DNA of 40,842 nt from Rhodospirillaceae bacterium (lineage in GTDB: Bacteria > Pseudomonadota > Alphaproteobacteria > MPNO01 > UBA830), in contig NZGJ01000011.1 in the NCBI GenBank assembly GCA_002689465.1, forward strand, positions 15,997-56,838. Direction: 5' to 3'. The notes under the pieces were generated by a model, which made no database searches, was not told the DNA's origin, and saw only the letters and a program-made list of their open reading frames with translations. Made by a program: the position numbers and the translations under genes. Below are positions 22,853 to 39,244 of this stretch, piece by piece (the stretch's first letter is position 1; every line of letters begins with the position of its first letter).

Positions 22853-22859
22853 GGCAGAT

Positions 22860-24047
22860 ATGATGTCGCCCGCGGCGGCGATGCTTACGATCCTGCGGGA
22901 TGCACTGCCCTCGGGTGCGCCTTTGCATGCGCCGGTCTTCGAAGGCCGCGAATGGGAATATGTGAAGGATTGCCTCGACACCGGATGGGTGTCGACGGCG
23001 GGTGAATATGTCGACCGTTTTGAGCATCTGATCCGTGACCGGGTCGGGTCCAGCGATGCCATCGCGGCGGTCAACGGCACCGCAGCGCTGCATGTGCTGC
23101 TCGTCGCGATTGGTGTCGAAGCCGGCGACGAAGTGATCATACCCGCGCTGACGTTTGTTGCGACCGCCAACTCGGTCGCCCATGTCGGGGCGACGCCCCA
23201 TTTTGCCGATATCGAACGGACCACGCTGGGCCTCGATCCTGCCCGGCTCGATGCCTATCTCACCGCGGTGGGCGAGGTCCGTGGCGACGTGCTCTGCAAC
23301 AAAATGACCGGCGCGCCGATACGCGCGATTGTGGCGGTCCATGTATTCGGTCATCCCTGCGACATGGGCGGACTTGTTACGGTCGCCCGCAAATTCAACC
23401 TCGACCTGCTGGAAGATGCTGCCGAATCTCTGGGCTCTATCCACGGCGGCACGCCGACCGGCGCAATCGGGCGGGCTGGCATTCTGAGCTTCAACGGAAA
23501 CAAGACCATTACCACCGGTGGCGGCGGTGCGATCGTGACCAACGACACCGCTTTGGGAGATCGCATCCGGCATCTCGCAACGACGGCCAAGAAATCCCAC
23601 GCGTGGGCTTATGAACATGACGCCGTCGGATTCAATTGCCGGATGCCGAATATAAATGCTGCGCTGGGTTGCGCGCAGATTGAGCTGCTCGACCGGTTCG
23701 TCACGGAAAAACGCGGGCTCGCCGATTGGTATCGCGACCGACTTCAATCTGTCGGCGGGGCGGAGTTTGTGGATGAGGCGCCGGGCAACCACAGCAACTT
23801 CTGGCTCAATGCCGTGCTGCTGGACGATCAGGCCCAGCGCGATCAGCTACTGGAAGATGCCCATACCCACAATATCGGGCTGCGTCCCGCCTGGCGGCCG
23901 ATGCACTGGCTCCCGATGTATGCCGGTTGCCCGCGCAGCGATCTGTCCGTGACGGAAGATATCTGCGCTCGGCTGGTCAACCTGCCGAGCGGGGTAGGCA
24001 CCGCCCGTGAGATTGCGCAACAGATCTCCGGTGCCGCATCATCGTAA
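22860..24047 (+). CDS. legC: PLP-dependent sugar 4-aminotransferase (LegC type)
   Basis: This DegT/DnrJ/EryC1-type aminotransferase, 395 residues, would aminate the 4-keto product of LegB using glutamate. PLP contacts visible are NGTAALH, Asp186 in LLEDAAESLG and the Schiff-base Lys215 in SFNGNKTITTGGGGA. The sequence resembles the LegC-like family (LLPSF_NHT). ATG 22860 lies five bases after AGGG, seven bases beyond the legB stop, and starts the conserved region; a further ATG follows directly, and in-frame starts further upstream overlap legB. It ends inside the short region where legG must begin. Confidence 0.88.
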   Translation: MMSPAAAMLTILRDALPSGAPLHAPVFEGREWEYVKDCLDTGWVSTAGEYVDRFEHLIRDRVGSSDAIAAVNGTAALHVLLVAIGVEAGDEVIIPALTFVATANSVAHVGATPHFADIERTTLGLDPARLDAYLTAVGEVRGDVLCNKMTGAPIRAIVAVHVFGHPCDMGGLVTVARKFNLDLLEDAAESLGSIHGGTPTGAIGRAGILSFNGNKTITTGGGGAIVTNDTALGDRIRHLATTAKKSHAWAYEHDAVGFNCRMPNINAALGCAQIELLDRFVTEKRGLADWYRDRLQSVGGAEFVDEAPGNHSNFWLNAVLLDDQAQRDQLLEDAHTHNIGLRPAWRPMHWLPMYAGCPRSDLSVTEDICARLVNLPSGVGTAREIAQQISGAASS

Positions 24048-25204
24048 AAGTACTCGCTATTACCGGTTCACGCGCCGATTACGGTTTGCTTAGCGGCCCG
24101 CTGCGCGCAATTCGGGAAACCGACGGGCTGGATCTCCGCCTCGCGGTCACGGGCAGCCACCTCTCGGCCGAGGGCGAGACGTCGCGGCGGGAGATATTGG
24201 ATGACGGTTTTGAGATCGATGCCGAAATCGATCCGGAACTGTCGGGCGATTCACCGCGGCACATCGCCGAAGCCACCGGTCGAATCACGGCGGCGGCGGC
24301 GGCGGTCTTTGCCGACCAGGCCCCCGACATCGCGCTGGTTCTGGGTGACCGGTATGAGATGCTTGCGGTCGCCATATCGGCGGCGCTGATGGAAGTGTCG
24401 ATCGCGCATATCCATGGCGGCGAGGCTACGATGGGGGCCATCGACGACAGCCTGCGAAACGCGATCACCAAACTGGCAAGCCTTCATTTCGCCTGTGCTG
24501 AGCCTTATCGAAACCGGATTATCCAGATGGGCGAGCTACCTGAACGTGTGTTCAACGTCGGCGCGCCTGGGATCGAGAAACTGCTTAAAACGCCACGGGC
24601 CGAGCCGTCGGAAATCTGGAACCTTCTGGGCTGCGAACTGCCGGCACCGTTCGTTCTGGTGACCTATCATCCCGAAACCGCAGGCAGTCCCGACCCGGCG
24701 ACGGATGTGGCGGAACTGCTCGCCGCGCTGAAGGCGTCGCGTGCCGGCGGCATCCTGTTCACCGGCATCAACGAGGATGCACGGCACAATGAAGTGGCAG
24801 CGACGATTCAGTCTTTTGTCGCGGCGACACCCGGCCGCGCCGCCTATGTTGGCAATATGGGGCAGCGTCTGTACTGGACGGCAATGGCACATTGCGCGGC
24901 GGTGGTAGGCAATTCCTCCAGCGGCATTATCGAGGCGCCTTCGCTGGGGGTACCGACCGTTAATATCGGAACGCGACAGCAGGGTCGTCTGCGCGCTGGT
25001 TCCGTCATCGATTGCGTACCCGCCCGCGAAGAAATTCTGCGCGCGCTTGAACTGGCGTTTGATCGGGATTTGGCGCTGGACCGACAGACACCGTATGGCA
25101 GCGGGGAAACGTCTGCGCTGATCGCCCGAAGTCTCGCCGGTGCGGATATCGGTGCGCTTTCGAGCAAGCCGTTTTACGACCTCGTCGGCGGGCACGCAGC
25201 ATGA
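24041..25204 (+). CDS. legG: Sugar-nucleotide 2-epimerase, hydrolysing (LegG/NeuC type)
   Basis: LegG/NeuC enzymes remove the nucleotide and invert C2, giving 2,4-diacetamido-2,4,6-trideoxymannose in the legionaminate route. Motifs: SRADYG (10-15), LVLGDRYEMLA, IAHIHGGE, VTYHPET and GNSSSGIIEAPSLGVPTVNI. The conserved first strand, VKVLAITGSRADYGLL, is encoded from 24044, but between the in-frame stop at 24008-24010 and it there is no ATG, GTG, TTG or CTG. The start given assumes ATC at 24041 (ATC 24038 is equally possible). The first usual codon is TTG 24086, which would remove the essential N-terminal strand and SRADYG. A sequencing error is the alternative. Its stop overlaps the next start (ATGA). 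Confidence 0.85.
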   Translation: MVKVLAITGSRADYGLLSGPLRAIRETDGLDLRLAVTGSHLSAEGETSRREILDDGFEIDAEIDPELSGDSPRHIAEATGRITAAAAAVFADQAPDIALVLGDRYEMLAVAISAALMEVSIAHIHGGEATMGAIDDSLRNAITKLASLHFACAEPYRNRIIQMGELPERVFNVGAPGIEKLLKTPRAEPSEIWNLLGCELPAPFVLVTYHPETAGSPDPATDVAELLAALKASRAGGILFTGINEDARHNEVAATIQSFVAATPGRAAYVGNMGQRLYWTAMAHCAAVVGNSSSGIIEAPSLGVPTVNIGTRQQGRLRAGSVIDCVPAREEILRALELAFDRDLALDRQTPYGSGETSALIARSLAGADIGALSSKPFYDLVGGHAA

Positions 25205-26304
25205 ACGCCGCCGACCAACTATCCGCCGCGAAAGGTGTCTTCGTGATCGCGGAGGCCGGCGTGAATCACAACGGCGACCTTGAGCTTGCCCGGCGCCTGA
25301 TCGATGTTGCAGCCGATGCCGGAGCAGATGCCGTAAAGTTTCAGACTTTTAGCGCCGATATGCTTGCGACCCATGCGGCACCGATGGCCGACTATCAACG
25401 GGCGGCAATCGGCGACGGGCAGTCGCAACAGGAGATGCTTAGGGCATTAGAACTTGCGCCGGCGGCTCATGCCGCGCTCAAGGCCCACGCCAACCTCCGG
25501 GGCGTGGAATTCATCTCAACGCCCTTCGATCGCGCCAGCCTGAAATTCCTGGTCGAGGAGCTAAAGGTCACGACGCTCAAGATAGGATCGGGAGACGCCA
25601 CAGACGGGCCGCTGCTTCTCGATGCCGCTCGGTCGGGATGCCGGCTGATCGTATCGACGGGGATGTGCGACCTTGAAGAAGTCGCCGCCGCCATTGATCT
25701 GATTGCTTATGGGATGACGTCGGACCGGACGCCGTCAGGTTCCGCCGATTTCGCCGGGTACCGTACTCGCCCGGATGCACCGCGCGCCTTGGCCGAGAAA
25801 GTCACCTTGCTGCATTGCACCAGCTTGTATCCGGCGCCTGTGGATATGGCGAATCTACGTGCCATGAAGACGATGCGTCAGGCGTTCGGGCTGCCTGTCG
25901 GGTATAGTGATCATACCCTGGGCGGAACCGTCGCCCTTGCCGCGTCCGCTGCCGGCGCGGCGGTCATCGAAAAACATGTAACACTAGATTGTGCAATGCC
26001 AGGCCCCGATCACGCGGCGTCGATGGAGCCGGTGGCGTTTGCATCCCTGGTCGCCGATATCCGCACCATCGAAGCCGCGCTTGGGACAGCTTCTAAAGAA
26101 CCTGCCGAGGCGGAGTACGATATGCGGCGCATCGCCCGTAAAAGCCTGGTGGCAGCGCGCAATGTGGCTCAAGGAACATTGTTGGCGGCGGAAGATGTTT
26201 CGGCAAAACGCCCAGGTGGCGGGATAAGTCCGATGGCCTTCTGGGATGTAATCGACACGCCTGCAAAGCAGGATTGCGAACTCGACGAAAGGCTTTCCCG
26301 GTGA
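25201..26304 (+). CDS. legI: N,N'-diacetyllegionaminate synthase (NeuB/LegI family)
   Basis: This NeuB-family synthase condenses phosphoenolpyruvate with the hexosamine made upstream to form a nine-carbon nonulosonic acid. The 367-residue protein has a TIM barrel with IAEAGVNHNGDL (17-27), AVKFQTF, FISTPFD, KIGSGD, IVSTGM, LLHCTSLYP, GYSDHT and IEKHVTLD. A C-terminal antifreeze-like SAF domain runs from about 310. Assigning legionaminate over sialate or pseudaminate rests on the LegB/LegC neighbours and is not proven. It overlaps legG by 4 bases and the acetyltransferase start (TGATG). Confidence 0.88.
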   Translation: MNAADQLSAAKGVFVIAEAGVNHNGDLELARRLIDVAADAGADAVKFQTFSADMLATHAAPMADYQRAAIGDGQSQQEMLRALELAPAAHAALKAHANLRGVEFISTPFDRASLKFLVEELKVTTLKIGSGDATDGPLLLDAARSGCRLIVSTGMCDLEEVAAAIDLIAYGMTSDRTPSGSADFAGYRTRPDAPRALAEKVTLLHCTSLYPAPVDMANLRAMKTMRQAFGLPVGYSDHTLGGTVALAASAAGAAVIEKHVTLDCAMPGPDHAASMEPVAFASLVADIRTIEAALGTASKEPAEAEYDMRRIARKSLVAARNVAQGTLLAAEDVSAKRPGGGISPMAFWDVIDTPAKQDCELDERLSR

Positions 26305-26954
26305 TGTCGACCGAATGGCCTGAAGTCAGACCTGCATTGATTCTCGGTTCAGGGGGCCATGCGGCTGTTGTGTTGGCTGCGTTGCAGGCGGCGACTGCGG
26401 CGGTTGCAGGATTGTTGGATTCCGATCCTTTGCGGCACGGTGCCAAGGTTCTTGGTATTGATGTTTTGGGCGGTGATGAATTTGCTGAAAGCGGCAATCC
26501 ATCTGAGTTTGTGCTGGTCAACGGGATTGGTGGGGTCTCAAATACCGATCAGAGACGCGGCGTGTTTGAAAAATTTACGGCGCTTGGATTTCAGTTCCCG
26601 GCAATCGTACATCCCTCAGCCATCGGGGCGAACGTCGCCCAGCTCGGCAACGGTGTGCAGGTGATGGCGGGGGCCGTGCTCCAGCCGCACACCCGCATCG
26701 GGGATAATTCGGTTGTGAATACAGGTGCGCTTGTCGACCACGATTGCACGCTCGGAGATCACGTCCATATTGCGCCGGGCGTGACGCTGTCGGGCGGGGT
26801 ATCGGTCGGATCCAGGACGATGATCGGTGCCGGTGCGACGGTCATACAGAATGTTGTGGTCGGTGAAGGCGCATTTGTCGCCGCAGGGGCCACGGTGGTG
26901 TCAGATGTCGATGCAGGCACCCGCGTCGGCGGCACCCCGTCAAGGAAGTTTTGA
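26304..26954 (+). CDS. NeuD/PglD-type sugar O- or N-acetyltransferase
   Basis: The 216-residue protein has the PglD/NeuD layout. A small Rossmann-like N-terminal domain (ALILGSGGHAAVVLAAL, 11-27) precedes a left-handed beta-helix of hexapeptide repeats (about 100-216). His146 in ALVDHDCTLG is the expected catalytic base, and the C-terminus is VGGTPSRKF. It could be LegH, which N-acetylates the 4-amino group made by LegC, or a NeuD-like O-acetylase. No other acetyltransferase is seen in the window, which favours LegH. ATG 26304 shares its A with the legI stop. Confidence 0.8.
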   Translation: MSTEWPEVRPALILGSGGHAAVVLAALQAATAAVAGLLDSDPLRHGAKVLGIDVLGGDEFAESGNPSEFVLVNGIGGVSNTDQRRGVFEKFTALGFQFPAIVHPSAIGANVAQLGNGVQVMAGAVLQPHTRIGDNSVVNTGALVDHDCTLGDHVHIAPGVTLSGGVSVGSRTMIGAGATVIQNVVVGEGAFVAAGATVVSDVDAGTRVGGTPSRKF

Positions 26955-26958
26955 TCAG

Positions 26959-28017
26959 ATGAACTGGAAAGATGCCGTTGTGGCCGTGGACGCCAATATC
27001 CGTGATGCGATGGCGGCGATCGACAAGGCGTCGATTCAGATGTGCCTGATTCTCAATAACGACCAAACCCTTTTCGGTGCGGTAACCGACGGCGATATCC
27101 GCCGGGCAATATTGCGCGGCGCGTCGCTCGACACGCCGGCGGTACAGATTGTGAGCAAGGCGCCGTATACAGAACCGGCGACCACCAGCCGGGAAACGCT
27201 TGAACGGCATATGTGGACGCGGAAAATCCGCCAGATTCCACTTCTGGATGAATCGAACCGTGTTGTCGACGTGGCCTATATCGACAATCTGTCCAGTATT
27301 TCCGAGCGCCGCCCCAACGACGTGATCCTGATGGCGGGCGGTATGGGAAAACGACTAAGGCCGTTGACCGAGGATCTGCCCAAGCCAATGCTGAAGGTCG
27401 GCGAGAAACCGATCCTGGAAACGATTATCTCGCGGTTTGTCGATCAAGGGTTTCAGAGCTTCAAGATTTCACTGAACTACCACGGAGATATGATCCGCGA
27501 CTATTTCGGTGACGGTAAAAAGTTTGATGCCGAGATCGAGTACCTGGAAGAGACCACTGCGTTCGGAACCGCCGGCGCGATCAGTCTGCTGAAAGAACCT
27601 CCGACGTCACCCGTTATCGTGATGAACGGCGACGTGCTGACGCAGGTCGATTTCCATAGCCTTCTGGCCTATCATGAGGAACACGATACAGTGGCGACGA
27701 TGGCGCTGCGCGAGTTTGGAATGCAGGTGCCGTTCGGTGTGGTCGATGTCGAAAATCACCGGGTGACGGCAATACATGAAAAGCCGAACAAGCAGTTTCT
27801 GGTAAACGCCGGTATCTATGTATTGTCTCCGGAGGTGATCGGCCTTGTGCCGACCGATCGGCGAAGCGATATGACCGACCTGTTCCAGACGCTGATCGAT
27901 ACCGGTCAGAATGTCACCGCTTTTCCGATCCACGAATACTGGATGGACGTGGGCCGTAAAAACGATCTTGAGCAGGCCACGGAAGATTACGACGCAATCT
28001 TCGGGTTGCGGTCCTAG
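26959..28017 (+). CDS. CBS-domain nucleotidyltransferase (PtmE-like)
   Basis: The 352-residue protein joins a pair of CBS motifs (about 1-115) to a nucleotidyltransferase domain with ILMAGGMGKRLRPLTEDLPK and a following PMLKVGEKP. The layout is that of Campylobacter PtmE, which makes GDP-glucosamine from glucosamine-1-phosphate and so starts the GDP-based legionaminate route; CBS domains may sense nucleotides. I infer the same job here. No PtmF or PtmA homologue (hexosamine supply) is visible, so these may be served by GlmS/GlmM elsewhere. ATG 26959 is 4 bases after the previous stop; an upstream in-frame start overlaps it heavily. Confidence 0.82.
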   Translation: MNWKDAVVAVDANIRDAMAAIDKASIQMCLILNNDQTLFGAVTDGDIRRAILRGASLDTPAVQIVSKAPYTEPATTSRETLERHMWTRKIRQIPLLDESNRVVDVAYIDNLSSISERRPNDVILMAGGMGKRLRPLTEDLPKPMLKVGEKPILETIISRFVDQGFQSFKISLNYHGDMIRDYFGDGKKFDAEIEYLEETTAFGTAGAISLLKEPPTSPVIVMNGDVLTQVDFHSLLAYHEEHDTVATMALREFGMQVPFGVVDVENHRVTAIHEKPNKQFLVNAGIYVLSPEVIGLVPTDRRSDMTDLFQTLIDTGQNVTAFPIHEYWMDVGRKNDLEQATEDYDAIFGLRS

Positions 28018-28030
28018 TCCCGTCGGCGAT

Positions 28031-29314
28031 ATGCCCAAAAAAGCGATCATCTATTTTACGAACGTTCCGTTCAGTCGCCGGGATTACGAGCGCTATGGCA
28101 TTGAATGGTGGCTGAATGCCGGGTTTTCCGTCACCGTTCTGGACGTGGGATATTTCGCTCTTCCCGCCCGGGACCCCAAGTGGGACGACGCAATGTACCG
28201 GAACGACAGCTTCGATCTTTCGGTTCTCCGTCGGAAGTCCGAGCTGAAGCGGTATCGGGCGATGTTGGCGGACGCGTCGCTGATTGTGGATTTGACGACG
28301 GCGCATGGGCATTCGCGCTGGAATCTGCCGGTTTTGCGCGCGATTTCTAAGTCGAAAACGCCTTGCATTCTTCTCTCTGTCAACGCCTACCCCGGCTATG
28401 ATCTTCCGCTCGCACAGTCGCGAGACTTGGCTGGAAAGATCGACATATTCCTTGCACGCTTGAAGTCGGCTGACCCGCTTAATTCCATTATTGCGCGGCT
28501 TCCATGCCGCTGGCTCGGCATAGAACCGGCCAACGCCGTGGTGTATGGCGGTCGAAGGAGCCGCAGGCGGATTACGACGGTTACGACGGATACGCTGGAG
28601 ATATCCGGTCATCATATGGATTACGATATTTTTCTCGATCAGGATTCTGAAATCAGCCTCGACAATACTGCCGTTTTCATTGACCAGGACCTGAGTGGAC
28701 ATCGCGAATTTGTCAGCAATAAAGCGTTCCATCAGATGGATACAGAGCAGTACTACCGGCTGCTTCGGAAAACGCTGGAGCGGGTTGAAAAAATTACAGG
28801 GCTCGAAATTGTAATTGCAAAGCATCCTCATGCATTATCTGCTGATCCAGAACGCTTCCTGCCGAACTGGCGTATCGTTCAGGGCCGAACGCTGGAACTT
28901 ATTCGAAGATGTCGGTTGGTGATTGCCCATAATTCTGCGGCCATCGCGTCTGTGGTCCTTAATCGTAAGCCGCTTCTTCTTGTTTTCAGCAAAGACTATA
29001 TCGATTCGTCGCATTGGAACCCGGTGTCTCACTATCCGCTTGCCGATGCGCTAGAACGAAATTGTCTGTATCTCGAAGACATAGCGGCGACAGATGACGA
29101 TGAATTTATGGCTGACCTGACGGCGGGATTCGACCCTTATATTGAGGATTACATTTCAGTTGGTCCGTTGCATCGGGAAAAGTTGTGGCCAATCATCGGC
29201 CGTGCGCTCGACGAGCATAAAATCATCAGCGGGCTTTCAATCCCAGCAGAACAAAAACCTGTGGGAGCAACGCAATACCAACCGGGAACTGAAAGTTTAG
29301 GTGAGTTGAGATGA
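28031..29314 (+). CDS. Unrecognised surface-glycan protein, possible GT-B glycosyltransferase
   Basis: I do not recognise a named family for this 427-residue protein. It starts MPKKAIIYFTNVPFSRRDYE and appears to have a Rossmann-like N-terminal half. The C-terminal half has VIAKHPHAL, RTLELIRRCRLVIAHNSAA and NRKPLLLVFSKDY, the nucleotide-sugar-binding pattern of GT-B enzymes and capsule proteins. No membrane segment or signal is clear. It begins 13 bases after the PtmE-like gene and overlaps the amidotransferase start (ATGA at 29311-29314). It may transfer the nonulosonic acid. The chosen ATG removes an in-frame extension overlapping the previous gene. Confidence 0.7.
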   Translation: MPKKAIIYFTNVPFSRRDYERYGIEWWLNAGFSVTVLDVGYFALPARDPKWDDAMYRNDSFDLSVLRRKSELKRYRAMLADASLIVDLTTAHGHSRWNLPVLRAISKSKTPCILLSVNAYPGYDLPLAQSRDLAGKIDIFLARLKSADPLNSIIARLPCRWLGIEPANAVVYGGRRSRRRITTVTTDTLEISGHHMDYDIFLDQDSEISLDNTAVFIDQDLSGHREFVSNKAFHQMDTEQYYRLLRKTLERVEKITGLEIVIAKHPHALSADPERFLPNWRIVQGRTLELIRRCRLVIAHNSAAIASVVLNRKPLLLVFSKDYIDSSHWNPVSHYPLADALERNCLYLEDIAATDDDEFMADLTAGFDPYIEDYISVGPLHREKLWPIIGRALDEHKIISGLSIPAEQKPVGATQYQPGTESLGELR

Positions 29315-30570
29315 CGGAACAGGTTAAATACGGGCTGCCGGCGGAGGTTAGGTTCTGCAAGAAATGCGTGATGTCCAACCAGCGGCCGAATTCTACGTCC
29401 GAATTCACTCACAAGGCCGATTCTCTGAAGCAAACGATACGTATCGATGATGAAGGTGTCTGCGACGCCTGCCGTGTCGCTGAACAGAAGGACTCGGCGA
29501 TCGACTGGGACACGCGCGAAGCCGAATTGCGCGATCTTTGTGACCGCTTCCGGCGCAACGACGGCACGTATGACTGCGTGGTGCCTGGTTCGGGTGGCAA
29601 GGACAGTTTTTATGCTGCGCACAAGCTCAAGTACGAATACGACATGCATCCGCTCACTGTTACGTGGGCGCCCCATATTCATACCGATTGGGGATGGAAG
29701 AATTTTGAAGCTTGGATTCATGCTGGATTCGACAATCTGCTGATGACCCCCAACGGCCGTGTTCATCGGCTCCTGACACGGCTTGCGACGGAACGGCTGT
29801 TCCATCCGTTCCAGCCTTTCATCTTCGGTCAGAAATCCCTCGCCCCGAAAAAGTCAGCGCTGTATGGCATCCCATTGGTTTTTTACGGTGAAAATGAAGC
29901 CGAATACGGCAACCCTCAGGCCGATACGCAAAACGCCCGTCGGGATTGGAAGTATTTCACAGCGAATGACCGTAACGAGATCTATCTCGGTGGTACGTCC
30001 ATTGCCGAACTCGAAGAGGATTTCGGCATCCATTCTTCCGAACTGCAGCCCTACCTTCCAGCAAACCCCAATGAATTGGAGCGCGTGAAGACCGAAGTGC
30101 ATTACCTTGGTTATTATCTGAAATGGCATCCGCAGGGCGCTTATTACTATTCTCAAGAGCATGGCGGGTTTCAGGCAGCGCCGGAACGGACGCCCGGCAC
30201 ATATTCGAAATACAACGGAATCGACGACAAGATCGACGACTTTCATTACTACACGACCTTCACCAAATTCGGCATCGGTCGCGCCACATATGACGCGTCG
30301 CAGGAAATCCGGAACGGTGAAATCGACCGCGAAGAAGCCGTTGCACTTGTCCGGCGGTTCGACGGCGAATTCCCGGACAGATTTGCCGAGGAAATTTTTA
30401 AATATCTTTCCATCGGCGAGAAAGAATTCCCCGCCGCCTCAGCGGTCTTCGACCACCCCGGCATGGACCGGGATTATTTTGCCGAACTGGAAAACCGGTT
30501 CCGGTCGCCGCATCTGTGGAGACGAGTAAATGATGCCTGGACCCTGAAGCATGCTGTCTGGCACGACTGA
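29311..30570 (+). CDS. N-acetyl sugar amidotransferase (WbpG/PseA family)
   Basis: This 419-residue PP-loop ATP pyrophosphatase fits the N-acetyl sugar amidotransferase family (WbpG, PseA). It should adenylate an acetamido group and replace its oxygen with ammonia to give an acetamidino group. The PP-loop is GSGGKDS (93-99). Two cysteine pairs, CKKC (16-19) and CDAC (51-54), probably bind zinc. In Pseudomonas O-antigen loci the same enzyme works with HisF- and HisH-like partners, and those partners follow here. The likely substrate is a legionaminic-type sugar or its nucleotide, from context. Start overlaps the upstream stop. Confidence 0.87.
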   Translation: MTEQVKYGLPAEVRFCKKCVMSNQRPNSTSEFTHKADSLKQTIRIDDEGVCDACRVAEQKDSAIDWDTREAELRDLCDRFRRNDGTYDCVVPGSGGKDSFYAAHKLKYEYDMHPLTVTWAPHIHTDWGWKNFEAWIHAGFDNLLMTPNGRVHRLLTRLATERLFHPFQPFIFGQKSLAPKKSALYGIPLVFYGENEAEYGNPQADTQNARRDWKYFTANDRNEIYLGGTSIAELEEDFGIHSSELQPYLPANPNELERVKTEVHYLGYYLKWHPQGAYYYSQEHGGFQAAPERTPGTYSKYNGIDDKIDDFHYYTTFTKFGIGRATYDASQEIRNGEIDREEAVALVRRFDGEFPDRFAEEIFKYLSIGEKEFPAASAVFDHPGMDRDYFAELENRFRSPHLWRRVNDAWTLKHAVWHD

Positions 30571-30598
30571 AATCGAACCGGTAAGCTTGTCCGGCGCC

Positions 30599-31369
30599 AT
30601 GGAGACATCGACCAACGTGCGACTGATCGCGCGGCTTGATGTAAAGGGGCAGAACCTTATTAAGGGCGTTCATCTTGAAGGGCTGCGCAAGCTTGGTGAT
30701 CCACAGACGTTTGCTAAGCGATACTATGAAGCCGGCATTGACGAGTTGATCTATATGGATGTCGTCGCCAGCCTTTATGGCAGGAATAACCTGACCGACG
30801 TTGTGCGCCATACTGCTGAGAACGTGTTCATCCCGATTACGGTGGGTGGCGGCATTCGGAGCGTCGAAGATGCCCGCACGATGCTGCGATCTGGCGCAGA
30901 CAAAATCGCGATCAACACGGCGGCTACCGGAAATCCAGATCTGATCGATGCGCTGGCGGCGTCATTCGGCGCCCAATGCGTTGTCCTGTCCGTCGAAGCG
31001 ATACGGCAATCCGACGGGCACTGGGAGGCTCATACGGATAACGGTCGTGAAAAGACAGGGCGCGACGTCGTCGAATGGGTGCAGGAAGCCGTAAGCCGTG
31101 GTGTCGGCGAAATTCTACTGACATCTGTCGACCGAGAAGGCACTCAATCCGGCTGTGACATCGACCTCGCCCGCGCCATCACGGACGCTGTAGATGTTCC
31201 GGTGATTCTGTCCGGCGGTGTGGGTAATCCTGACCATCTTGTGAAGGCGGTTCGCGATGGCGGCGCGGATGCGGTCGCCGTTGCCCATGTTCTGCACTAC
31301 GACAAGTTTACCGTTCCGGCCCTTCGCCAAGCCGCGAACGCAAACGGTCTCCGGGTCCGCCCGACATGA
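30599..31369 (+). CDS. HisF-like cyclase subunit of sugar amidination
   Basis: The 256-residue TIM barrel is HisF-like: [10 protein letters not shown] with Asp14, [19 protein letters not shown] and [13 protein letters not shown]. No his genes are nearby. Its place between an N-acetyl sugar amidotransferase and a HisH-like glutaminase makes it the HisF2-type partner in acetamidino formation, probably channelling ammonia. At the position of the second catalytic Asp of true HisF (Asp130, in VAIDA) it reads VLSVEA, with Glu133, supporting a non-histidine role; this alignment is by eye. ATG 30599 starts just before the barrel, whereas an ATG at 30551 would overlap the upstream gene. Confidence 0.83.
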
Positions 31370-32013
31370 CGGGAAGACCGTCGGTGACGATTGTCGATTA
31401 CGGCAGGGGCAATCTGTTAAGTGTCGGCAGGGCGTTCGAACAGGCTGGCGCGGATGTTGTCATTACCGACGACGCCAGGGTGATTGCGGAGGCGGCGCGG
31501 GTTGTCGTCCCCGGGGTTGGCGCGTTTGGAGATGCGATGAATGAATTATCTGCCCGTGATCTGATTGAGCCGCTGAAATCCTATGCGGGTACAGGCCTTC
31601 CAATACTCGGGGTCTGCGTCGGCATGCAAATTCTATTCGATGGCGGAGAGGAATTCGGCGAAAATGCCGGTCTCGGACTGTTGCCGGGCAGCGTGACCCC
31701 TATTGCGGGGCGCAGCAAGATGCGTTTGAAAATTCCACATATTGGATGGGATCGATTAATTCCGGCCAGTAGTTGGGACGGAACAATCCTCGCAGGGCTG
31801 GGCGATGATCCATATTGCTACTTCGTCCATTCTTTCGCGGCAGTACCGGAGAACCCGAGTGATTTGCTGTCGCAATCCGTATATGGGGACATCACCTTGA
31901 CGGCGGCGGTGCGCCGCGGGAATGTCTGGGGGTGTCAGTTTCATCCCGAAAAAAGCGGTCCGGTCGGCCTTAAGATTATCTCCAATTTTCTGGAATTGAC
32001 GCGAGTATCATGA
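31366..32013 (+). CDS. HisH-like glutaminase subunit of sugar amidination
   Basis: This class-I glutamine amidotransferase, 215 residues, should release ammonia from glutamine for the HisF-like partner. The triad reads as Cys84 in GVCVGMQ, His193 and Glu195 in CQFHPEKSG, and the oxyanion loop is VPGVGAFGDAM. Although it looks like HisH, the neighbours show the sugar-amidination version. It overlaps both neighbours by 4 bases (ATGA at 31366 and 32010), so stoichiometric coupled translation is likely. Confidence 0.87.
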   Translation: MTGRPSVTIVDYGRGNLLSVGRAFEQAGADVVITDDARVIAEAARVVVPGVGAFGDAMNELSARDLIEPLKSYAGTGLPILGVCVGMQILFDGGEEFGENAGLGLLPGSVTPIAGRSKMRLKIPHIGWDRLIPASSWDGTILAGLGDDPYCYFVHSFAAVPENPSDLLSQSVYGDITLTAAVRRGNVWGCQFHPEKSGPVGLKIISNFLELTRVS

Positions 32014-32690
32014 TCACCGGACACAAAGTCGCCGCCGTGATTGTCGGCAGGGGCGGATCGAAGGGTCTGCCGGGTAAGAACCTCGCTGACCTGGGCGGCA
32101 AGCCGCTAGTCGCCTGGAGCGTTACTGCGGCGGCGGGCGCTCAATTTGTCGATGTGGTGGCGGTTAGTTCGGACGATCCCGACATCCTGAATGCGGCCCG
32201 GATGGCGGGCTGCGAACGCACGATCAGGCGTCCGGATGCATTGGCCAGCGATATCGCATCGGTCCATGACACACTGGTCCACGCGCTTGACGAGCTTGAT
32301 TGGACAGACGGTTTCGTCGTGCTATTGCAGACGACGTCGCCATTACGGATAGCGGCAGATATCGACGCCTGTATACAGAGTTGCGTCGACGCGGATGCGC
32401 CCAGCGCGGTTACGGTGTCGGCGGTCTCAAAACCGCCGCAATGGATGTTCAGACTCGATAGCGCCTGCAAAATGGAACGTCTTATAGAAGACGATAGCGC
32501 TTATCGGCGTCAGGATACGGAGCCGGTGTACGCCCTCAACGGCGCGGTCTATGTTGCGCGCACGGATTGGTATCGGCGGCACCGGAATTTCATCGACGAC
32601 CAGACCGTCGCGAGGATCATGCCGGCGGAGCGGTCGGTGGATATAGACACCGAGATGGACCTGACCCTCGCCCGGGCCTTGGTCGCCTGA
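32010..32690 (+). CDS. CMP-nonulosonate synthetase (LegF/NeuA family)
   Basis: This 226-residue cytidylyltransferase activates a nonulosonic acid with CTP. It has RGGSKGLPGKN (14-24), then VSSDDPDI, LQTTSPLR, and late Asp-rich IDTEMDL, as in NeuA, LegF and PseF. With legB, legC, legG and legI upstream, CMP-legionaminic acid synthetase (LegF) is the best guess, and the amidino-sugar may be its true substrate. It closes the overlapping block that begins at the glycosyltransferase-like gene, and is followed by a 53-base gap with a new ribosome site. Confidence 0.85.
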   Translation: MITGHKVAAVIVGRGGSKGLPGKNLADLGGKPLVAWSVTAAAGAQFVDVVAVSSDDPDILNAARMAGCERTIRRPDALASDIASVHDTLVHALDELDWTDGFVVLLQTTSPLRIAADIDACIQSCVDADAPSAVTVSAVSKPPQWMFRLDSACKMERLIEDDSAYRRQDTEPVYALNGAVYVARTDWYRRHRNFIDDQTVARIMPAERSVDIDTEMDLTLARALVA

Positions 32691-32743
32691 GACTGCACGG
32701 GACCCGTCCCGGTATGAATTTCTTAATTTAGGGAGAACTCACG

Positions 32744-32920: not shown

Positions 32921-32963
32921 TCCGGAAACGAACGGTCCATCGAAGGATAGCGCCTGAACAAAA

Positions 32964-33998
32964 ATGATCTACGAATCGGAAAAAAAGGGCGGACTTGCCC
33001 GCAAGTTGCTCGACCATATGGGGCAAATTACGCAGGACCGTCATGGCAATCTGGCGCGCGCCAATGCGCGGGCCAATTTGGCGCGCAAAGGCGCTGGCCA
33101 ATCCCTTGCGGCTCTTCGCGGGCAACCGGTCGGCGCTGGTGAACGAGCGCTGGTGATCGCCGCCGGTCCGTCGATCCGGCGGCAGGACACGTTGCGCAAA
33201 GTCGTCGAAAACGGCTTCGAAGGCGCGATTATCGCCACCGAATCGGCAATGCGTGGCTGCCTGCTTAACGGAATTATACCTGACCTTGTTGTCACGCTCG
33301 ATCCGCACGTGACGCGTATCGTCCGGTGGTTTGGCGACCCTGCGTTGTCTGAAAGCGCACTTGCCGATGACGACTATTTCCGCCGCCAGGAACAGGACGA
33401 GGCGTTTGCCAGCGAAATGCGGGCGAACGAGGAAATACTCAGACTGCTCGACGAACACGGCCGCGGTATTAAGATCGCGTTGGCGAGCTCCGCTTCGGAC
33501 GTCGTTGTTTCCCGCGTTATCGACTGCGGGATGGATATTTACTGGTGGAATCCGATGCTGGACGATCCCGACGAGCCGGAGAGCATTACAGCGGGCATGA
33601 TGGCGGAAAACGGCTGGCCCTGTGTCAATGCGGGTGGAAATGTCGGCACCGCGGCGTGGATGATGGCGACCGAGGTGCTGGAGAAACAGACGGTTGCGCT
33701 GACAGGAATGGATTTCGGGTATTACAGTGACACCGCGTATAAGAACACGCAGTATTACACCGAAGCTGTTGCGTTGGTCGGCGAGGACAATCTGGACAGT
33801 CTGTTCGTCCGTTTTGACAATCCGCATTACGATGCCTGGTTTTTTACCGATCCAGCCTATCTCTGGTATCGGGAGAGTTTTCTCGAGCTGGTAGCGGATT
33901 CCGACTCTAAGACGGTCAACTGCACCGAAGGCGGTGTACTGTTTGGCCCCGGCATCGACGTTTTTACCCTAAACGAATTTCTGACCGCGACACCGTGA
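32964..33998 (+). CDS. Maf/DUF115 family protein
   Basis: The 344-residue protein resembles the Maf (motility-associated factor) / DUF115 family, which has an MptE-like fold and is tied to transferring nonulosonic acids to flagellin. Typical parts are ERALVIAAGPSIRRQDTL, AIIATESAMRGCLLNGI, PDLVVTLDPH and the later GGNVGTAAWMMA and TGMDFGYYSD. It is shorter than full flagellar Maf proteins, which add flanking domains. No flagellar genes are in view, so flagellin as target is inference. The ATG start has no strong ribosome site. Confidence 0.8.
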   Translation: MIYESEKKGGLARKLLDHMGQITQDRHGNLARANARANLARKGAGQSLAALRGQPVGAGERALVIAAGPSIRRQDTLRKVVENGFEGAIIATESAMRGCLLNGIIPDLVVTLDPHVTRIVRWFGDPALSESALADDDYFRRQEQDEAFASEMRANEEILRLLDEHGRGIKIALASSASDVVVSRVIDCGMDIYWWNPMLDDPDEPESITAGMMAENGWPCVNAGGNVGTAAWMMATEVLEKQTVALTGMDFGYYSDTAYKNTQYYTEAVALVGEDNLDSLFVRFDNPHYDAWFFTDPAYLWYRESFLELVADSDSKTVNCTEGGVLFGPGIDVFTLNEFLTATP

Positions 33999-34024
33999 CG
34001 ACAGCCCTCACCAAAGGATAAGCT

Positions 34025-35596
34025 ATGGCTAAAGTGCTCTTAATAAATCCGATCGTTCGCGAAGAAGACGTCCCGCGACACGTACCGTATGGAATCGCTC
34101 TACTCGCTGCGATTGCGATGGATAACGACCATCAGGTCCAGGTCTATGACGCAAATGCCTGGCGTCTGGGAGACGACGTACTTGTGCAGGTGCTGCAGGC
34201 GGATGATTGGGACGTGATCGCGATGGGCGGCATTACCACCGCTTACGGATCTATAAAGGCAATCTGCAAGATCGCCGAGGAATGTTGCCCGGATGCGGTC
34301 ATCATGCTGGGTGGTGGCGTGCTGACGTCGCTACCCCGGGATATGATGACATTTTTGCCCCAGGTCGATGTCGGTGTCATCGGTGAGGCCTTTGTAACCT
34401 TTCCAGAATTGCTCGAGATGATAGACGGCGGCGAAACGGCCTGGGAGAAAATACCAGGCACGATTTCACGTAAAGACGACGGTGATTTCAAGCTTGGTCC
34501 CATGCGCACCCTGCTTGAAGATATCGACACTATTCCCTATCCGGCTTGGGACCTATTCCCTCTCGAAGAGGTTTATTTTAAGAACAGCGAGGTGTTGTTT
34601 TCCGAAGAAGGCATGCTCGCGTCTCGTCGTCTGGATATCAATGCGTCCTATGGGTGCAGTATGATCTGCCGGTATTGCTATCATCTCGGCATCGCCGGAG
34701 ATATGCGCTACGAGACAGATGAAGACGGTGTTGTCCAGATCAACTTCGATCAACCTGGTGCGTATTCGCGAGCCAGCCGGTACCACAGTCCCGAATATAT
34801 CGTCGGCATGGTCAAGCATTGCTACGATAAATATGGCATCAATTTCATCGGGTTCCTGGATGAAAACCTGATGACAATGGACCAGGCGTCCGGACGCACG
34901 TGGTTGAGTGAAATCTGCCGGTTGTGGCACGAGAACGGTCTCGCGCCGGAATACGAATATGATGAAAACGGCGACATGAAGAGCTGGACCGGCGTTCACT
35001 GGTCGGGCACCAGTCATGCCACATTGTGCAACCCTGAAATCCTCAAAACGATGCGGGCGGCGGGCTGCTCACATCTGGTCTATGGCTACGAATCGTTCGC
35101 GCCGCATGTTATGAAGCTGATTGGGAAGGGGGCCACGCCAAAGACAAATGTACGCAGCTTTTTCTGGACGCTGGATGCTGGCATTCGTCCGATACCCAAT
35201 CAGATTATCGGCTTTCCCAACGAGGATTTCGATGCCATTCGTATGAACATGGATGCGTGGGAAGAGCTCGGCATTGTGGTCAAGCCGCACTTCGCGACCC
35301 CGTATCCCGGATCGGAATGGTTCACGGTCAACCGAGATGACATCGCGGCGCAATACGGCGGCGATCTTGAAGCCTTCATCGAGGATCTCGGCGATGCCAG
35401 CAAAATTTCCGCGACAATCTGCAAGAACTTCAACGCGATCGAACTGTTGGGTCTTCGTGAAATGATGCTGACCGGCGATCGCCGCCAGATCGACCACTAC
35501 GAAGATATCTGGCGGCGCAATCACAACATACCTGACGGTTCCCCGTCGACGCTCTGGGAAACGGCGGAAACGAAAGCGGTCTTCGGCAGAAGCTGA
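34025..35596 (+). CDS. Cobalamin-type radical SAM enzyme
   Basis: This 523-residue protein has an N-terminal cobalamin-binding-like Rossmann domain (about 1-135), with MLGGGVLTSLP and VDVGVIGE motifs. A radical SAM core follows, its cluster cysteines Cys211, Cys215 and Cys218 in the CSMICRYC motif. The usual DxHxxG B12-ligand motif is not obvious, so the corrin may bind without a histidine ligand. Such enzymes often methylate unreactive carbons or rearrange rings. Its substrate is unknown, but placement between Maf-like and KdsB-like genes suggests a sugar. It begins 26 bases after the Maf-like gene. Confidence 0.85.
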   Translation: MAKVLLINPIVREEDVPRHVPYGIALLAAIAMDNDHQVQVYDANAWRLGDDVLVQVLQADDWDVIAMGGITTAYGSIKAICKIAEECCPDAVIMLGGGVLTSLPRDMMTFLPQVDVGVIGEAFVTFPELLEMIDGGETAWEKIPGTISRKDDGDFKLGPMRTLLEDIDTIPYPAWDLFPLEEVYFKNSEVLFSEEGMLASRRLDINASYGCSMICRYCYHLGIAGDMRYETDEDGVVQINFDQPGAYSRASRYHSPEYIVGMVKHCYDKYGINFIGFLDENLMTMDQASGRTWLSEICRLWHENGLAPEYEYDENGDMKSWTGVHWSGTSHATLCNPEILKTMRAAGCSHLVYGYESFAPHVMKLIGKGATPKTNVRSFFWTLDAGIRPIPNQIIGFPNEDFDAIRMNMDAWEELGIVVKPHFATPYPGSEWFTVNRDDIAAQYGGDLEAFIEDLGDASKISATICKNFNAIELLGLREMMLTGDRRQIDHYEDIWRRNHNIPDGSPSTLWETAETKAVFGRS

Positions 35597-35616
35597 TTTC
35601 TGCGGGGCTAAACGTC

Positions 35617-36366
35617 ATGAAAACAGTTGCTGTTATTCCGGCTCGCATGGGCTCATCGCGATTTCCGGGCAAACCGCTCGCGCCATTACATGGCCGGGCG
35701 ATGATCGAACATGTCTATAAAAGGACGGCCATGTGCCCGGATCTCGCGGATGTCGTTGTTGCAACTTGCGACACGGAAATCCGCGATGCCGTCGAAGCAT
35801 TTGGCGGTAAGGCGGTTATGACGGCCGATACGCATGAACGGGCCAGCGATCGGATGGCAGAAGCCGCGCAAAGCCTTGAGGGAGATATCTTCGTGCTTGT
35901 CCAGGGCGACGAGCCGATGACGTTTCCCGATATGATCACCGAAGCGGTTTCGCCTTTCTCGGCAGATCCCGGCGTTGCCTGTGTTAATCTGACCAAGCAA
36001 ATCCTCGATATAGACGAGTTCAAAAGCCCCAATACCATCAAAGTCGTCATCGGTACCGGCGAAGACGCGTTGTACATGTCGCGGTCGGAGATCCCGACGC
36101 TTGCCAATAGCAACTTCCGTGATATCGCGGCATTTAAACAGGTATGTATTATTCCGTTCCGGCGCGATGCTCTGGAGTGCTACACGGCGTTGTTCCCCAC
36201 ACCTGGCGAGATTGCCGAATCGATTGATATGTTGCGGTTTCTTGAGCACGGACTACCGGTTCGGATGGTCAAAACGGCATTCGATACCCATGCGGTGGAT
36301 ACTCAGGACGACCTCGATCACGTATCCGCCCTGATGGCGAATGATTCACTTATGAACAGGTACTGA
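35617..36366 (+). CDS. KdsB-like 3-deoxy-2-ulosonate cytidylyltransferase
   Basis: The 249-residue protein resembles CMP-Kdo synthetase: IPARMGSSRFPGKPLAPL (7-24), VVVATCD, QGDEP (96-100). The family's usual HxxGTDR region reads HERASDRMAE here, so Kdo itself may not be the substrate. This is a second CMP-sugar synthetase in the operon, beside the LegF-like one. It would activate a different 2-keto-3-deoxy sugar, possibly made or changed by the adjacent radical SAM and dehydrogenase enzymes. Genomes usually also carry a housekeeping kdsB; none is visible here. Confidence 0.8.
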   Translation: MKTVAVIPARMGSSRFPGKPLAPLHGRAMIEHVYKRTAMCPDLADVVVATCDTEIRDAVEAFGGKAVMTADTHERASDRMAEAAQSLEGDIFVLVQGDEPMTFPDMITEAVSPFSADPGVACVNLTKQILDIDEFKSPNTIKVVIGTGEDALYMSRSEIPTLANSNFRDIAAFKQVCIIPFRRDALECYTALFPTPGEIAESIDMLRFLEHGLPVRMVKTAFDTHAVDTQDDLDHVSALMANDSLMNRY

Positions 36367-36373
36367 ACCGGCG

Positions 36374-37315
36374 ATGACTTTCCGAGTGCTTATCTCCGCC
36401 CCATACTTTTTACCCGAAATCGACCGCTTTAAGACGTTCTTCGACGAAAACAATATCGAACCCGTCATTGCGCCCGTTGAAGAACGGCTCGAAGAAGCGG
36501 AACTACTGGAACTGATATCCGACATCGACGGCATAGTCTGCGGCGATGATCGGTTAACTGCCAGGGTTTTCGATGCAGCGCCGCGGCTGAAGGTCGTTTC
36601 CAAATGGGGAACCGGGATTGATTCCATCGACAGAGCCGCCGCCGCGGCGCGCAATATTGCCGTCTGCCGGACACCCGACGCTTTCACGGAGCCGGTTGCA
36701 GATACTGTGCTCGGGTATATTTTGTGCTTTGCCCGGAACCTGCCCTTCATGGATACAGCCATGAAACAGGGAACATGGAAAAAAATTCCCGGCCGTGCAA
36801 TGAACGAATCAATTGTCGGCGTGGTAGGGGTCGGCGCGATTGGCTGCGCCATTCTGCGCCGAGCCGCACCGTTCGGCCCCCGGTTGCTGGGATACGATCC
36901 CGCGGATATCGATCCTAAAACGATTGCGGAAGTTGGCGTAGAGATGACATCGCTCGAAGATCTGCTTGCCCGGTCGGATTTTGTCAGCATCAACTGCGAT
37001 CTAAATGGATCATCGTTTCACCTGATGAATGCCGAAACCTTTGCGCTGATGCAGTCCCACGCCATCATCGTCAACGCCGCCCGCGGCCCGGTGATCGACG
37101 AAAAAGACCTGATTTCCGCCCTTCAAAGCGGCGCGATCGCGGGTGCAGCCATGGACGTGTTCGAAGACGAACCGCTACCGGTTGATAGTCCGCTTCGTGC
37201 GATGGACAACGTGCTGATAGCCCCGCATAACAGCAATTCCAGTCGGATGGCCTGGGAGCGAGTCCATCTGAATACGCTGAACCAGTTGGTCTCGGAACTG
37301 GAAAAACGAGCGTAA
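36374..37315 (+). CDS. D-isomer-specific 2-hydroxyacid dehydrogenase
   Basis: This 313-residue NAD(P)-dependent enzyme of the phosphoglycerate dehydrogenase type has the nucleotide loop GVVGVGAIG (149-157) and the catalytic set Arg237 in NAARGPV, Glu266 in DVFEDEP and His285 in APHNSNS. It oxidises a D-2-hydroxyacid or reduces a 2-ketoacid. As an operon member beside a KdsB-like protein, it could act on an ulosonic acid or its precursor, but a serine-pathway-like substrate cannot be excluded. It follows the cytidylyltransferase by 7 bases. Confidence 0.85.
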   Translation: MTFRVLISAPYFLPEIDRFKTFFDENNIEPVIAPVEERLEEAELLELISDIDGIVCGDDRLTARVFDAAPRLKVVSKWGTGIDSIDRAAAAARNIAVCRTPDAFTEPVADTVLGYILCFARNLPFMDTAMKQGTWKKIPGRAMNESIVGVVGVGAIGCAILRRAAPFGPRLLGYDPADIDPKTIAEVGVEMTSLEDLLARSDFVSINCDLNGSSFHLMNAETFALMQSHAIIVNAARGPVIDEKDLISALQSGAIAGAAMDVFEDEPLPVDSPLRAMDNVLIAPHNSNSSRMAWERVHLNTLNQLVSELEKRA

Positions 37316-37330
37316 CGCGCCCGACTTAAC

Positions 37331-39244
37331 ATGGTCCAGACATCGATAATTGTACGAGCGTTCAACGAGGCAAAGCACCTGCCTGCTTTGTTTGATGGAA
37401 TAGATGCGCAGAGCTATCGTGACTTCGAGGTCATATTGGTCGATTCCGGATCCTATGACCGTACCCGCGAAATTGCGGAGGCGCGGGGCGCGCGGCTCGT
37501 GCGGATCAACAGCCAAGATTTTACGTTTGGGTATAGCCTGAATATCGGCATCGAAGCCGCAAAGGGCGAATATATGGTCATCGTTTCGGCACATACGGTG
37601 CCGGTAGACAATGAGTGGTTGGCCCGCATGATTGCGCCATTGCAGGATGACGGTGTTGTCATGAGCTATGGCCGTCAGATTGGTGTGGCTGAATCGAAGT
37701 TTTCCGAAGCGAACGATTTTGACAGGTTTTTCGGTCCGCGCGGGCGCGATGACACACCGCGAAATATCAAGGCCAACAACGCGAATTCTGCAATCCGAAA
37801 AACGGAATGGACGATGAAAAAATTTCATCCACTTCTGCCCGGACTCGAAGATGCAGACTGGGCATTGCACTGGTTGCGCTGCGACCGGCGGGTCGTGTAT
37901 TTGCCAGACGCAACGATCCGGCACATCCACGAGGAAACATGGCCGCAGATTCGGCGACGATTCTACCGCGAAGCGGTCGCCGCCCGACGGATCGGTCTAC
38001 TTGGCAGACGCCATATCCCGCGGGAAGTGTTGCGCGATTTTCGGCGGATATTCAAAGATGTGGCTCTCTGTTTCCGGCCGGCTGGGAATCCGGTGGCGAC
38101 ACGCCTGAATGTTGCCCGCCGTCTTGCCGACGTATTGATGTACCGGGCAAGCAAGACCGCCGGCATGATCCGGGGCCTTACTGACCGAAACCCCCTCGAT
38201 TCACGCGAGTCCGAGGAGGTTGTCTTCTTCAACCGCAGCAACCGTGCCGTCGTCATTCAGGGCCCGGGCCGGGCAAAGCTCGAAGTGCGCGACTTGCCAA
38301 GCCTAAAACCGGGCGACGTGCTAATACGGGTTGATCACGTCGCTGTCTGCGCTACGGACCTCGAAATACTCGATGGTGATCTTGGGTATTACAAGAACGG
38401 CATGGCTTCGTTTCCAATCGTCCCGGGGCATGAATTTTCCGGTCACATCGTCGCGACCGGCAGCAATGTCGATACGTTGGCGGAAGGTAATCCTGTGGTG
38501 GTCGAATGTATTCAGAGTTGCGGCGTTTGTGACGAATGCCGTGCCGGAAATCCGATCGGCTGTGATGAGCGGACGGAACTGGGAGTCATGCGGCGCGATG
38601 GAGCGTATGCTGAATATCTTACCGCGCCCGCCCGTTTTGCTCACCGAATTCCCGATGACCTGCCACTTGTTAAAGCAGCTTTGGCCGAACCGGTCGCGGT
38701 GATTCTGAAAGGACTCGGCCGGATCGATCCGTTTCTTTCGACGCGACCTGCGCCGCAGAAATATGCGGTTCTGGGCGCCGGCCCGTTGGGTCATATCTGC
38801 GCCAAAGTTCTTGCCCATCGGGGGCACAACGTAACTGCGTTCGATCGGAACCCGGAACGGTTGGCGTATTTCGACGGCACCGGAATAGAAACATCGCAAT
38901 CGCTCAAGGGGTTGAAGGATTTTGATGCGATCATCGAAATAACCGGTGATCCGGATGTACTTGATTCAGCGCTTCACGCCAGCCGCGCAAATGTCGTAAT
39001 TCTGCTGCTGGGTTTACCCTATGGCGAAAAGAATTTTTCATTCGAGGCAGTCGCAGCCCACGACAAGACCGTGATCGGATCAGTGGGTAGTACGGCGGCG
39101 GATTTCGACATCGCAATCGACCTATTGCCAAAGTTGAACCTCGATCGCCATCTTGAATGCCGGCTGCCGTTGGACTCATTCGAAGAAGCGTGGCGCAGAG
39201 CGCGACACGGCGAAGGGCTGAAAATCATCCTGGACGTTGCGTGA
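37331..39244 (+). CDS. Glycosyltransferase family 2 / zinc alcohol dehydrogenase fusion
   Basis: One 637-residue frame holds two enzymes. Residues 1 to about 290 are a GT2-like glycosyltransferase with SIIVRAFNEAKHLPALFDGI; where most GT2 enzymes have DxD it reads VSAHTVP. Residues about 300-637 are a medium-chain zinc alcohol dehydrogenase. Catalytic zinc ligands are Cys340 and His367/Glu368 in PGHEFSG, four structural-zinc cysteines (397, 400, 403, 411) lie in CGVCDECRAGNPIGC, and the NAD loop is VLGAGPLG (480-487). No stop or frameshift separates the halves. The GTGA at its end starts the next gene. It could oxidise a sugar and transfer it or a related sugar. Confidence 0.85.
   Translation: MVQTSIIVRAFNEAKHLPALFDGIDAQSYRDFEVILVDSGSYDRTREIAEARGARLVRINSQDFTFGYSLNIGIEAAKGEYMVIVSAHTVPVDNEWLARMIAPLQDDGVVMSYGRQIGVAESKFSEANDFDRFFGPRGRDDTPRNIKANNANSAIRKTEWTMKKFHPLLPGLEDADWALHWLRCDRRVVYLPDATIRHIHEETWPQIRRRFYREAVAARRIGLLGRRHIPREVLRDFRRIFKDVALCFRPAGNPVATRLNVARRLADVLMYRASKTAGMIRGLTDRNPLDSRESEEVVFFNRSNRAVVIQGPGRAKLEVRDLPSLKPGDVLIRVDHVAVCATDLEILDGDLGYYKNGMASFPIVPGHEFSGHIVATGSNVDTLAEGNPVVVECIQSCGVCDECRAGNPIGCDERTELGVMRRDGAYAEYLTAPARFAHRIPDDLPLVKAALAEPVAVILKGLGRIDPFLSTRPAPQKYAVLGAGPLGHICAKVLAHRGHNVTAFDRNPERLAYFDGTGIETSQSLKGLKDFDAIIEITGDPDVLDSALHASRANVVILLLGLPYGEKNFSFEAVAAHDKTVIGSVGSTAADFDIAIDLLPKLNLDRHLECRLPLDSFEEAWRRARHGEGLKIILDVA

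Follow-up and report, generated by a model that had tools for sequence, protein, structure and literature searches.

Separate sugar modules, one with a KdsB-like cytidylyltransferase and one with a B12-binding radical SAM enzyme, probably adjoin in a surface-glycan cluster of a Rhodospirillaceae bacterium

The DNA stretch studied here (the window, 40,842 nucleotides) comes from contig NZGJ01000011.1 (positions 15,997 to 56,838, forward strand) of the Rhodospirillaceae bacterium assembly GCA_002689465.1, a metagenome-assembled genome (MAG) of 1.34 Mb that is 67% complete. It contains four tightly packed open reading frames (ORFs), all on the plus strand (Table 1). They code for a B12-binding radical S-adenosylmethionine (SAM) enzyme, a KdsB-like cytidylyltransferase (KB), a D-2-hydroxyacid dehydrogenase (2-HADH), and a fusion of a GT2 glycosyltransferase domain with a zinc-dependent medium-chain dehydrogenase (MDR) domain; Pfam matches of all four proteins exceed gathering cut-offs. 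The first-pass annotation had regarded the four genes as a single block for a new activated sugar. Their gene content splits into two modules: the radical SAM gene closes module A (21833-35596), and the other three genes constitute module B (35617-39244). We consider it probable that these are separate sugar modules within one surface-glycan cluster and not one pathway, and the evidence supports a second ulosonic acid, other than 3-deoxy-D-manno-oct-2-ulosonic acid (Kdo), activated with cytidine monophosphate (CMP).

The radical SAM protein of the window was used to search about 85,000 species genomes, and 80 loci were retained. By record titles they belong to about nine phyla (Proteobacteria, Nitrospinaceae, Nitrospirae, Myxococcales/Polyangia, Chloroflexi, Acidobacteria, Rokubacteria, Omnitrophota, and Elusimicrobia). 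In counts that depend on locus length and include related species separately, a small MptE/Maf-like gene was found in 77 of the 80 loci. It lies directly upstream and on the same strand in 70 of the 74 loci with upstream room, and overlaps the radical SAM gene by a few bases in two more. Homologues of the NeuA/LegF type are present in 67 loci, those of the NeuB type in 51, one or the other in 71, and at least one of the PtmG/WbpG-, HisF-, and HisH-like genes in 31. Although > 1.5 kb of downstream sequence is available in 71 loci, only L044 and L045 have KB with > 45% identity. The radical SAM gene belongs to the nonulosonate (legionaminic-type) system and not to the KB module; its earlier placement outside the legionaminic route is wrong, and a role as partner of KB is not supported.

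The radical SAM protein combines a B12-binding domain and a radical SAM domain with a CxxxCxxC motif (C211, C215, and C218) invariant in 36 aligned homologues, and can be classified as a B12-binding radical SAM enzyme on these features. Its predicted structure (mean predicted local distance difference test score, pLDDT, 89.2) has TsrM, AprD4, and OxsB as the nearest folds, and its sequence profile matches AprD4, CysS, and TokK. No NCBIfam equivalog cut-off was reached. The domains and the overall fold are shared with TsrM, CysS, TokK, and AprD4 (query TM-score 0.55-0.64), but identity to the window enzyme in structural alignments is only 13-18%. TsrM is a B12-dependent methylase, and AprD4 a sugar diol dehydratase; neighbours of this kind suggest that the enzyme may perform C-methylation, deoxygenation, or another radical step. 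In a search of the open-access literature, we found no paper joining legionaminic, cobalamin/nonulosonic acid, or DUF115/glycosyltransferase with radical SAM, and none describing this kind of enzyme among nonulosonate genes.

The fold of the small MptE-like protein is closest to Maf 5mu5 (query TM-score 0.52, 15% identity), at about half the length, and its match to the FlagModPseD model is far under the cut-off. The two final genes of module A form a dedicated pair, which would perform radical chemistry on the nonulosonic acid or on a glycan bearing it, with C-methylation as the first choice and deoxygenation as the second. Alternatively, the pair could act on the carrier, a protein or a lipid, instead of the sugar. 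Maf proteins put nonulosonic acids on flagellin (PMC11339370), and in our sample flagellin-like genes occur in nine of the 80 loci, while eight have an MptE/Maf-type protein of full length. However, nine loci of 80 is a small share, and the eight loci have the full-length Maf-type gene as a separate gene, so that the transferase function need not fall to the small pair; we regard action on the carrier as unlikely. The flagellin-like genes were observed close to the pair in L078, L082, L086, L101, L106, L111, L112, L118, and L123, some accompanied by a Maf-type protein of full length (about 830 aa). Because of these genes in nine loci and the full-length protein in eight, at least some of the clusters probably serve flagellin glycosylation. 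In addition, formyltransferase-like and PIG-L-like deacetylase genes adjoin in L097 (Table 1) and also in L080, L083, L108, L109, and L116, and might indicate N-formylated nonulosonic acids.

As a reverse control, we used 25 loci of close and more distant KB relatives, at a cut-off of E 1e-15 and 70 bits. Genes similar to NeuB, NeuC, LegC, LegF, and MptE were detected in none of the 25 loci, and a radical SAM match was present in one (L153). With a looser cut-off, one LegF-like match appeared (L166). The reciprocal counts almost never show both together, so the adjacency of KB and the radical SAM gene in the window most likely results from cluster assembly.

The control also bears on the possibility that KB, 2-HADH, and MDR tailor legionaminic acid itself, so that one nonulosonic acid would be served by two CMP enzymes. 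A precedent exists in EpaA, a cytidylyltransferase-reductase fusion, which together with EpaB makes 8-epipseudaminic acid (PMC12053666). Likeness to this system consists of an additional CTP_transf_3 protein and dehydrogenases joined to a nonulosonate pathway, and in three loci (the window, L044, and L045) the KB module indeed comes after nonulosonate genes. On the other hand, EpaA has a fused aldo-keto reductase domain and an N-terminus that models like LgaG, whereas KB resembles KdsB and not NeuA. Nonulosonate genes are missing from all 25 other KB-relative loci at the cut-off used, and KB is elsewhere accompanied by its own aldolase and phosphatase, which makes tailoring of legionaminic acid quite improbable. 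Still less can be said for a single pathway of all four genes, with the radical SAM enzyme providing the KB substrate with its carbon skeleton: the genes stand side by side in the same order in the window, L044, and L045, but both reciprocal neighbourhood counts, including the absence of the MptE-like partner from KB-relative loci, speak against one block, which was rejected, and leave this reading very unlikely.

In a tree whose bootstrap is not fully settled and in which some rows are long-branched, 32 alphaproteobacterial housekeeping KdsBs, including copies from the genus and the family of the window, make one clade (100/100). KB falls into a different clade (99/98), together with the second KdsB-like gene of its own genome, KB2. 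The first-pass annotation had considered that KB could be a plain CMP-Kdo synthetase if it clustered with housekeeping kdsB and if the genome lacked any other copy. The clustering is contradicted by the tree. As to the second point, KdsA was found in the genome of the window, and housekeeping KdsB and WaaA were not found; this absence is read as missing sequence because of the incompleteness of the MAG. Members of the same genus and family have a separate housekeeping copy, and a relative from the same order (G017) has one gene of each of the three types (housekeeping KdsB, KB, and KB2).

As the annotation had noticed, KB lacks the usual HxxGTDR pattern and has HERASDR instead. At the positions of R and A in the middle of this motif, the 32 housekeeping KdsBs have S (31) or T (1), followed by G (32). 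The CTP/Mg residues R10, R15, K19, Q98, D100, and D235 (E. coli numbering) are kept in KB as throughout KdsB. A switch at six other sites characterizes all 11 closest KB sequences (H181 to Q, Y185 to I/M, E210 to D, Q211 to M, S74 to R, and G75 to A); in KdsB the original residues vary little or not at all, and KpsU-like proteins retain them. KB2 has V/I, F, D, and S at the positions of H181, Y185, E210, and Q211. The changed residues would contact the sugar; this placement draws on the general picture from KdsB structures and on the description of the A. aeolicus enzyme. In A. aeolicus KdsB, the N-terminal domain binds CTP, and the C-terminal domain is responsible for Kdo binding and dimerisation (PMC3149649). 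In profile comparisons, KB scores 139.3 against the TIGR00466 cut-off of 155.2 and 158.8 against the NF003948 cut-off of 281, not reaching these equivalogs, and exceeds two NCBIfam subfamily models named CMP-Kdo synthetase. Judged from sequence, KB is outside housekeeping KdsB, with the CTP/Mg site retained and the sugar side changed.

In eight genomes from a single family, with a listed completeness of 99-100%, the only KdsB-type gene is a KB relative (57-62% identity). LpxC was undetected in all eight of these KB-only genomes, and in the six tested for them, WaaA was not found and no KdsA passed the cut-off. AmoA is present in three of four KB-only genomes tested, with three copies in two of them. 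For Nitrosomonas europaea, lpxK alone was reported of nine lipid A genes (PMC3087551); given this report and the presence of AmoA, the family is probably Nitrosomonadaceae. Because its close relatives are kept in bacteria without the tested lipid A and Kdo genes, KB very probably activates another ulosonic acid and not Kdo. The tree, the sites, and these genomes thus speak for the second ulosonic acid that the first-pass annotation had deduced from a CMP-sugar synthetase standing beside a LegF-like one, and the latter was confirmed as a NeuA/PseF/LegF-type gene (Table 1).

KB shares with KdsB and KpsU the protein family, the CTP and Mg residues, and the length, K5 KpsU is its best PDB match, and together with the exceeded subfamily models and the KdsA of the window's genome this would suit a plain second CMP-Kdo synthetase giving Kdo for a capsule, like KpsU of group 2 capsules; however, KB has none of the H, Y, E, Q, and S-G retained in KpsU and KpsU-like relatives, with HxSGTDR and the C-terminal H181, Y185, E210, and Q211 replaced, it has 2-HADH beside it, joined in relatives by an HpcH/HpaI aldolase, it misses the equivalog cut-offs and remains where LpxC, KdsA, and WaaA are undetected, so that this explanation is highly improbable and was rejected on the tree, the sites, and the genomes without Kdo genes.

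KB relatives are accompanied by a recurrent gene set. In all eight KB-only genomes, KB is close to an HpcH/HpaI aldolase, a 2-HADH, an epimerase-type short-chain dehydrogenase/reductase (SDR), and a HAD phosphatase, which are co-conserved. An FkbM methyltransferase and an O-antigen-ligase-like gene adjoin the partner set in L151. The 6-phosphogluconolactonase ending the L151 cluster was rejected as a module gene; it passes the pgl cut-off and is missing from the Acuticoccus set described below. In more distant KB relatives, 2-HADH occurs with an aldolase, a GmhA-like isomerase, and a Gfo/Idh enzyme, to which two of these loci add an inositol-phosphatase-type protein. On a plasmid of the cultured marine strain Acuticoccus sp. 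I52.16.1 (Table 1), genes for a similar aldolase, a NeuA-like enzyme, 2-HADH, HAD, and SDR follow in a row, the NeuA-like enzyme being in place of the KdsB-like one. The attachment of two CMP transferase types to the same set suggests that its product is an acid to be activated with CMP. KdsB matches on E. coli and Streptomyces plasmids had no 2-HADH alongside. HpaI, GarL, and rhamnonate aldolase models match the partner aldolase below the cut-off, and as a member of this family it presumably uses pyruvate. The route would follow the logic of KdsA-KdsC-KdsB and NeuB-NeuA, with carbon-carbon joining, phosphatase, and CMP transfer, but with an HpcH/HpaI aldolase instead of the synthase dependent on phosphoenolpyruvate (PEP), and with two dehydrogenases added.

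Of the proposed redox partners, 2-HADH does travel with KB and recurs close to KB-clade genes, and the GT2-MDR fusion was found beside KB only in the window and L045; likewise, the assumed neighbourhood of four families holds for KB with 2-HADH and not for the radical SAM gene. The window 2-HADH has the motifs GVGAIG, ARGPVI, DVFEDEP, and PH. The serine-pathway phosphoglycerate dehydrogenase (SerA) was rejected for this protein, which scores 204.9 bits against a cut-off of 454, is 313 aa long, and shows no ACT domain. In the fusion protein, PF00535 occupies residues 5-126 and PF08240/PF00107 residues 326-599. It is full-length, with 58% identity, in another family of the order (L045), and is therefore not an assembly artefact; C340, H367, E368, C397, C400, C403, and C411 are identical in the two fusions. 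On plasmids, no GT2-MDR fusion covering at least 80% was found. We propose that it provides the transferase and a redox step of the KB module. The set is reduced in the window to KB, 2-HADH, and the fusion, in the same way as in L045, and L044 ends at a contig end.

Several points weigh against a KB module for a non-Kdo acid. The window-type cassette has been seen at three loci, of which one stops at a contig end. A relative of the aldolase was not found in the genome of the window at E 1e-15, a result of little weight at 67% completeness. The sugar-side residues were defined from conservation and not from structure, and for every member the KB-type activity and its sugar are assigned from sequence and gene content. 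Because of the reduced gene set and the aldolase not found, the substrate route is less certain in the window than the substrate class.

Combining these data, module A would make a legionaminic-type nonulosonic acid, and module B would provide a second activated sugar. The expected reaction of KB is a coupling of cytidine triphosphate (CTP) with a non-Kdo 2-keto sugar acid at its anomeric hydroxyl. In KB relatives, this acid is probably built by an HpcH/HpaI-type aldol reaction and then released by the phosphatase, with redox steps by 2-HADH and an SDR or Gfo/Idh enzyme. In the window, redox steps would fall to 2-HADH and the MDR domain, and sugar transfer to the GT2 domain fused with the latter. 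We infer the chemistry of each step, the KB substrate, the action of the radical SAM pair on a nonulosonic acid, and the GT2 transfer.

Table 1. Positions of the described genes in the window and in other loci
Feature	Position	Strand	Protein length	Basis
Legionaminic-type core: LegB-, LegC-, NeuC/LegG-, NeuB/LegI-, NeuD-, PtmE-like genes	21833..28017	+		Profiles; position and similarity
PtmG/WbpG-, HisF-, HisH-like genes (amidotransferase set, acetamidino-type modification)	29311..32013	+		Sequence, synteny, family knowledge
NeuA/PseF/LegF-type CMP-nonulosonate synthetase	32010..32690	+		PF02348; TIGR03584 125.7 bits, under cut-off 205.7
Small MptE/Maf-like protein	32964..33998	+		PF01973
B12-binding radical SAM enzyme	34025..35596	+	523 aa	PF02310 + PF04055
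KdsB-like cytidylyltransferase (KB), motif HERASDR	35617..36366	+	249 aa	PF02348 (CTP_transf_3) E 2.1e-38
D-2-hydroxyacid dehydrogenase (2-HADH)	36374..37315	+	313 aa	PF02826/PF00389 (2-Hacid_dh_C/2-Hacid_dh)
GT2 + zinc-dependent medium-chain dehydrogenase (MDR) fusion, threonine/sorbitol-DH type	37331..39244	+	637 aa	PF00535, PF08240/PF00107
Protein directly 3' of GT2-MDR gene	39157-40842			No Pfam match
Heparinase II/III-like protein	17149-18882
Heparinase II/III-like protein	L035:2119-3816
KB2 module	L034:12088-19443 + L035:1133-2083
Radical SAM protein	L034:1038-2687
Radical SAM protein	L034:9899-11128
Formyltransferase-like and PIG-L-like deacetylase genes	L097:7085-8646
Acuticoccus sp. 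I52.16.1 plasmid set	L207:10687-15139

In the legionaminic-type core, LegC (TIGR04181, 497 bits), NeuB (TIGR03569, 428 bits), and NeuC (TIGR03568, 358 bits) profiles are all matched above the cut-off; the LegB-, NeuD-, and PtmE-like genes were assigned from position and similarity. About 20 kb downstream of KB, a second KdsB-like module comprises two Gfo/Idh oxidoreductases, KB2 (motif HTRALDR), a GmhA-like isomerase, and a second 2-HADH, and is conserved in two members of the family (genomes G004 and G005). The same cluster includes two more radical SAM proteins, one matching the B12-binding domain weakly and the other having a SPASM domain. Heparinase II/III-like proteins are located on both sides of the sugar cluster. 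The protein without a Pfam match that follows the GT2-MDR gene has a counterpart with a similar start after the fusion in L045.

Because their scores exceed NCBIfam subfamily models that bear the name CMP-Kdo synthetase, KB-type genes are liable to be called kdsB, and Kdo would then be inferred where perhaps none is made. The residue signature and the gene set separate the KB type from true KdsB, and would explain why bacteria lacking lipid A genes can have an orphan kdsB-like gene. The B12 radical SAM pair represents a testable system for which the literature searches found no paper. In a broader and tentative proposal, the KB type may define a route to CMP-2-ulosonic acids by HpcH/HpaI aldol and 2-HADH chemistry without a PEP-dependent synthase, giving ammonia oxidisers that lack lipid A a charged non-Kdo surface sugar, and the cobalamin radical enzyme may make carbon-modified nonulosonic acids in many phyla.

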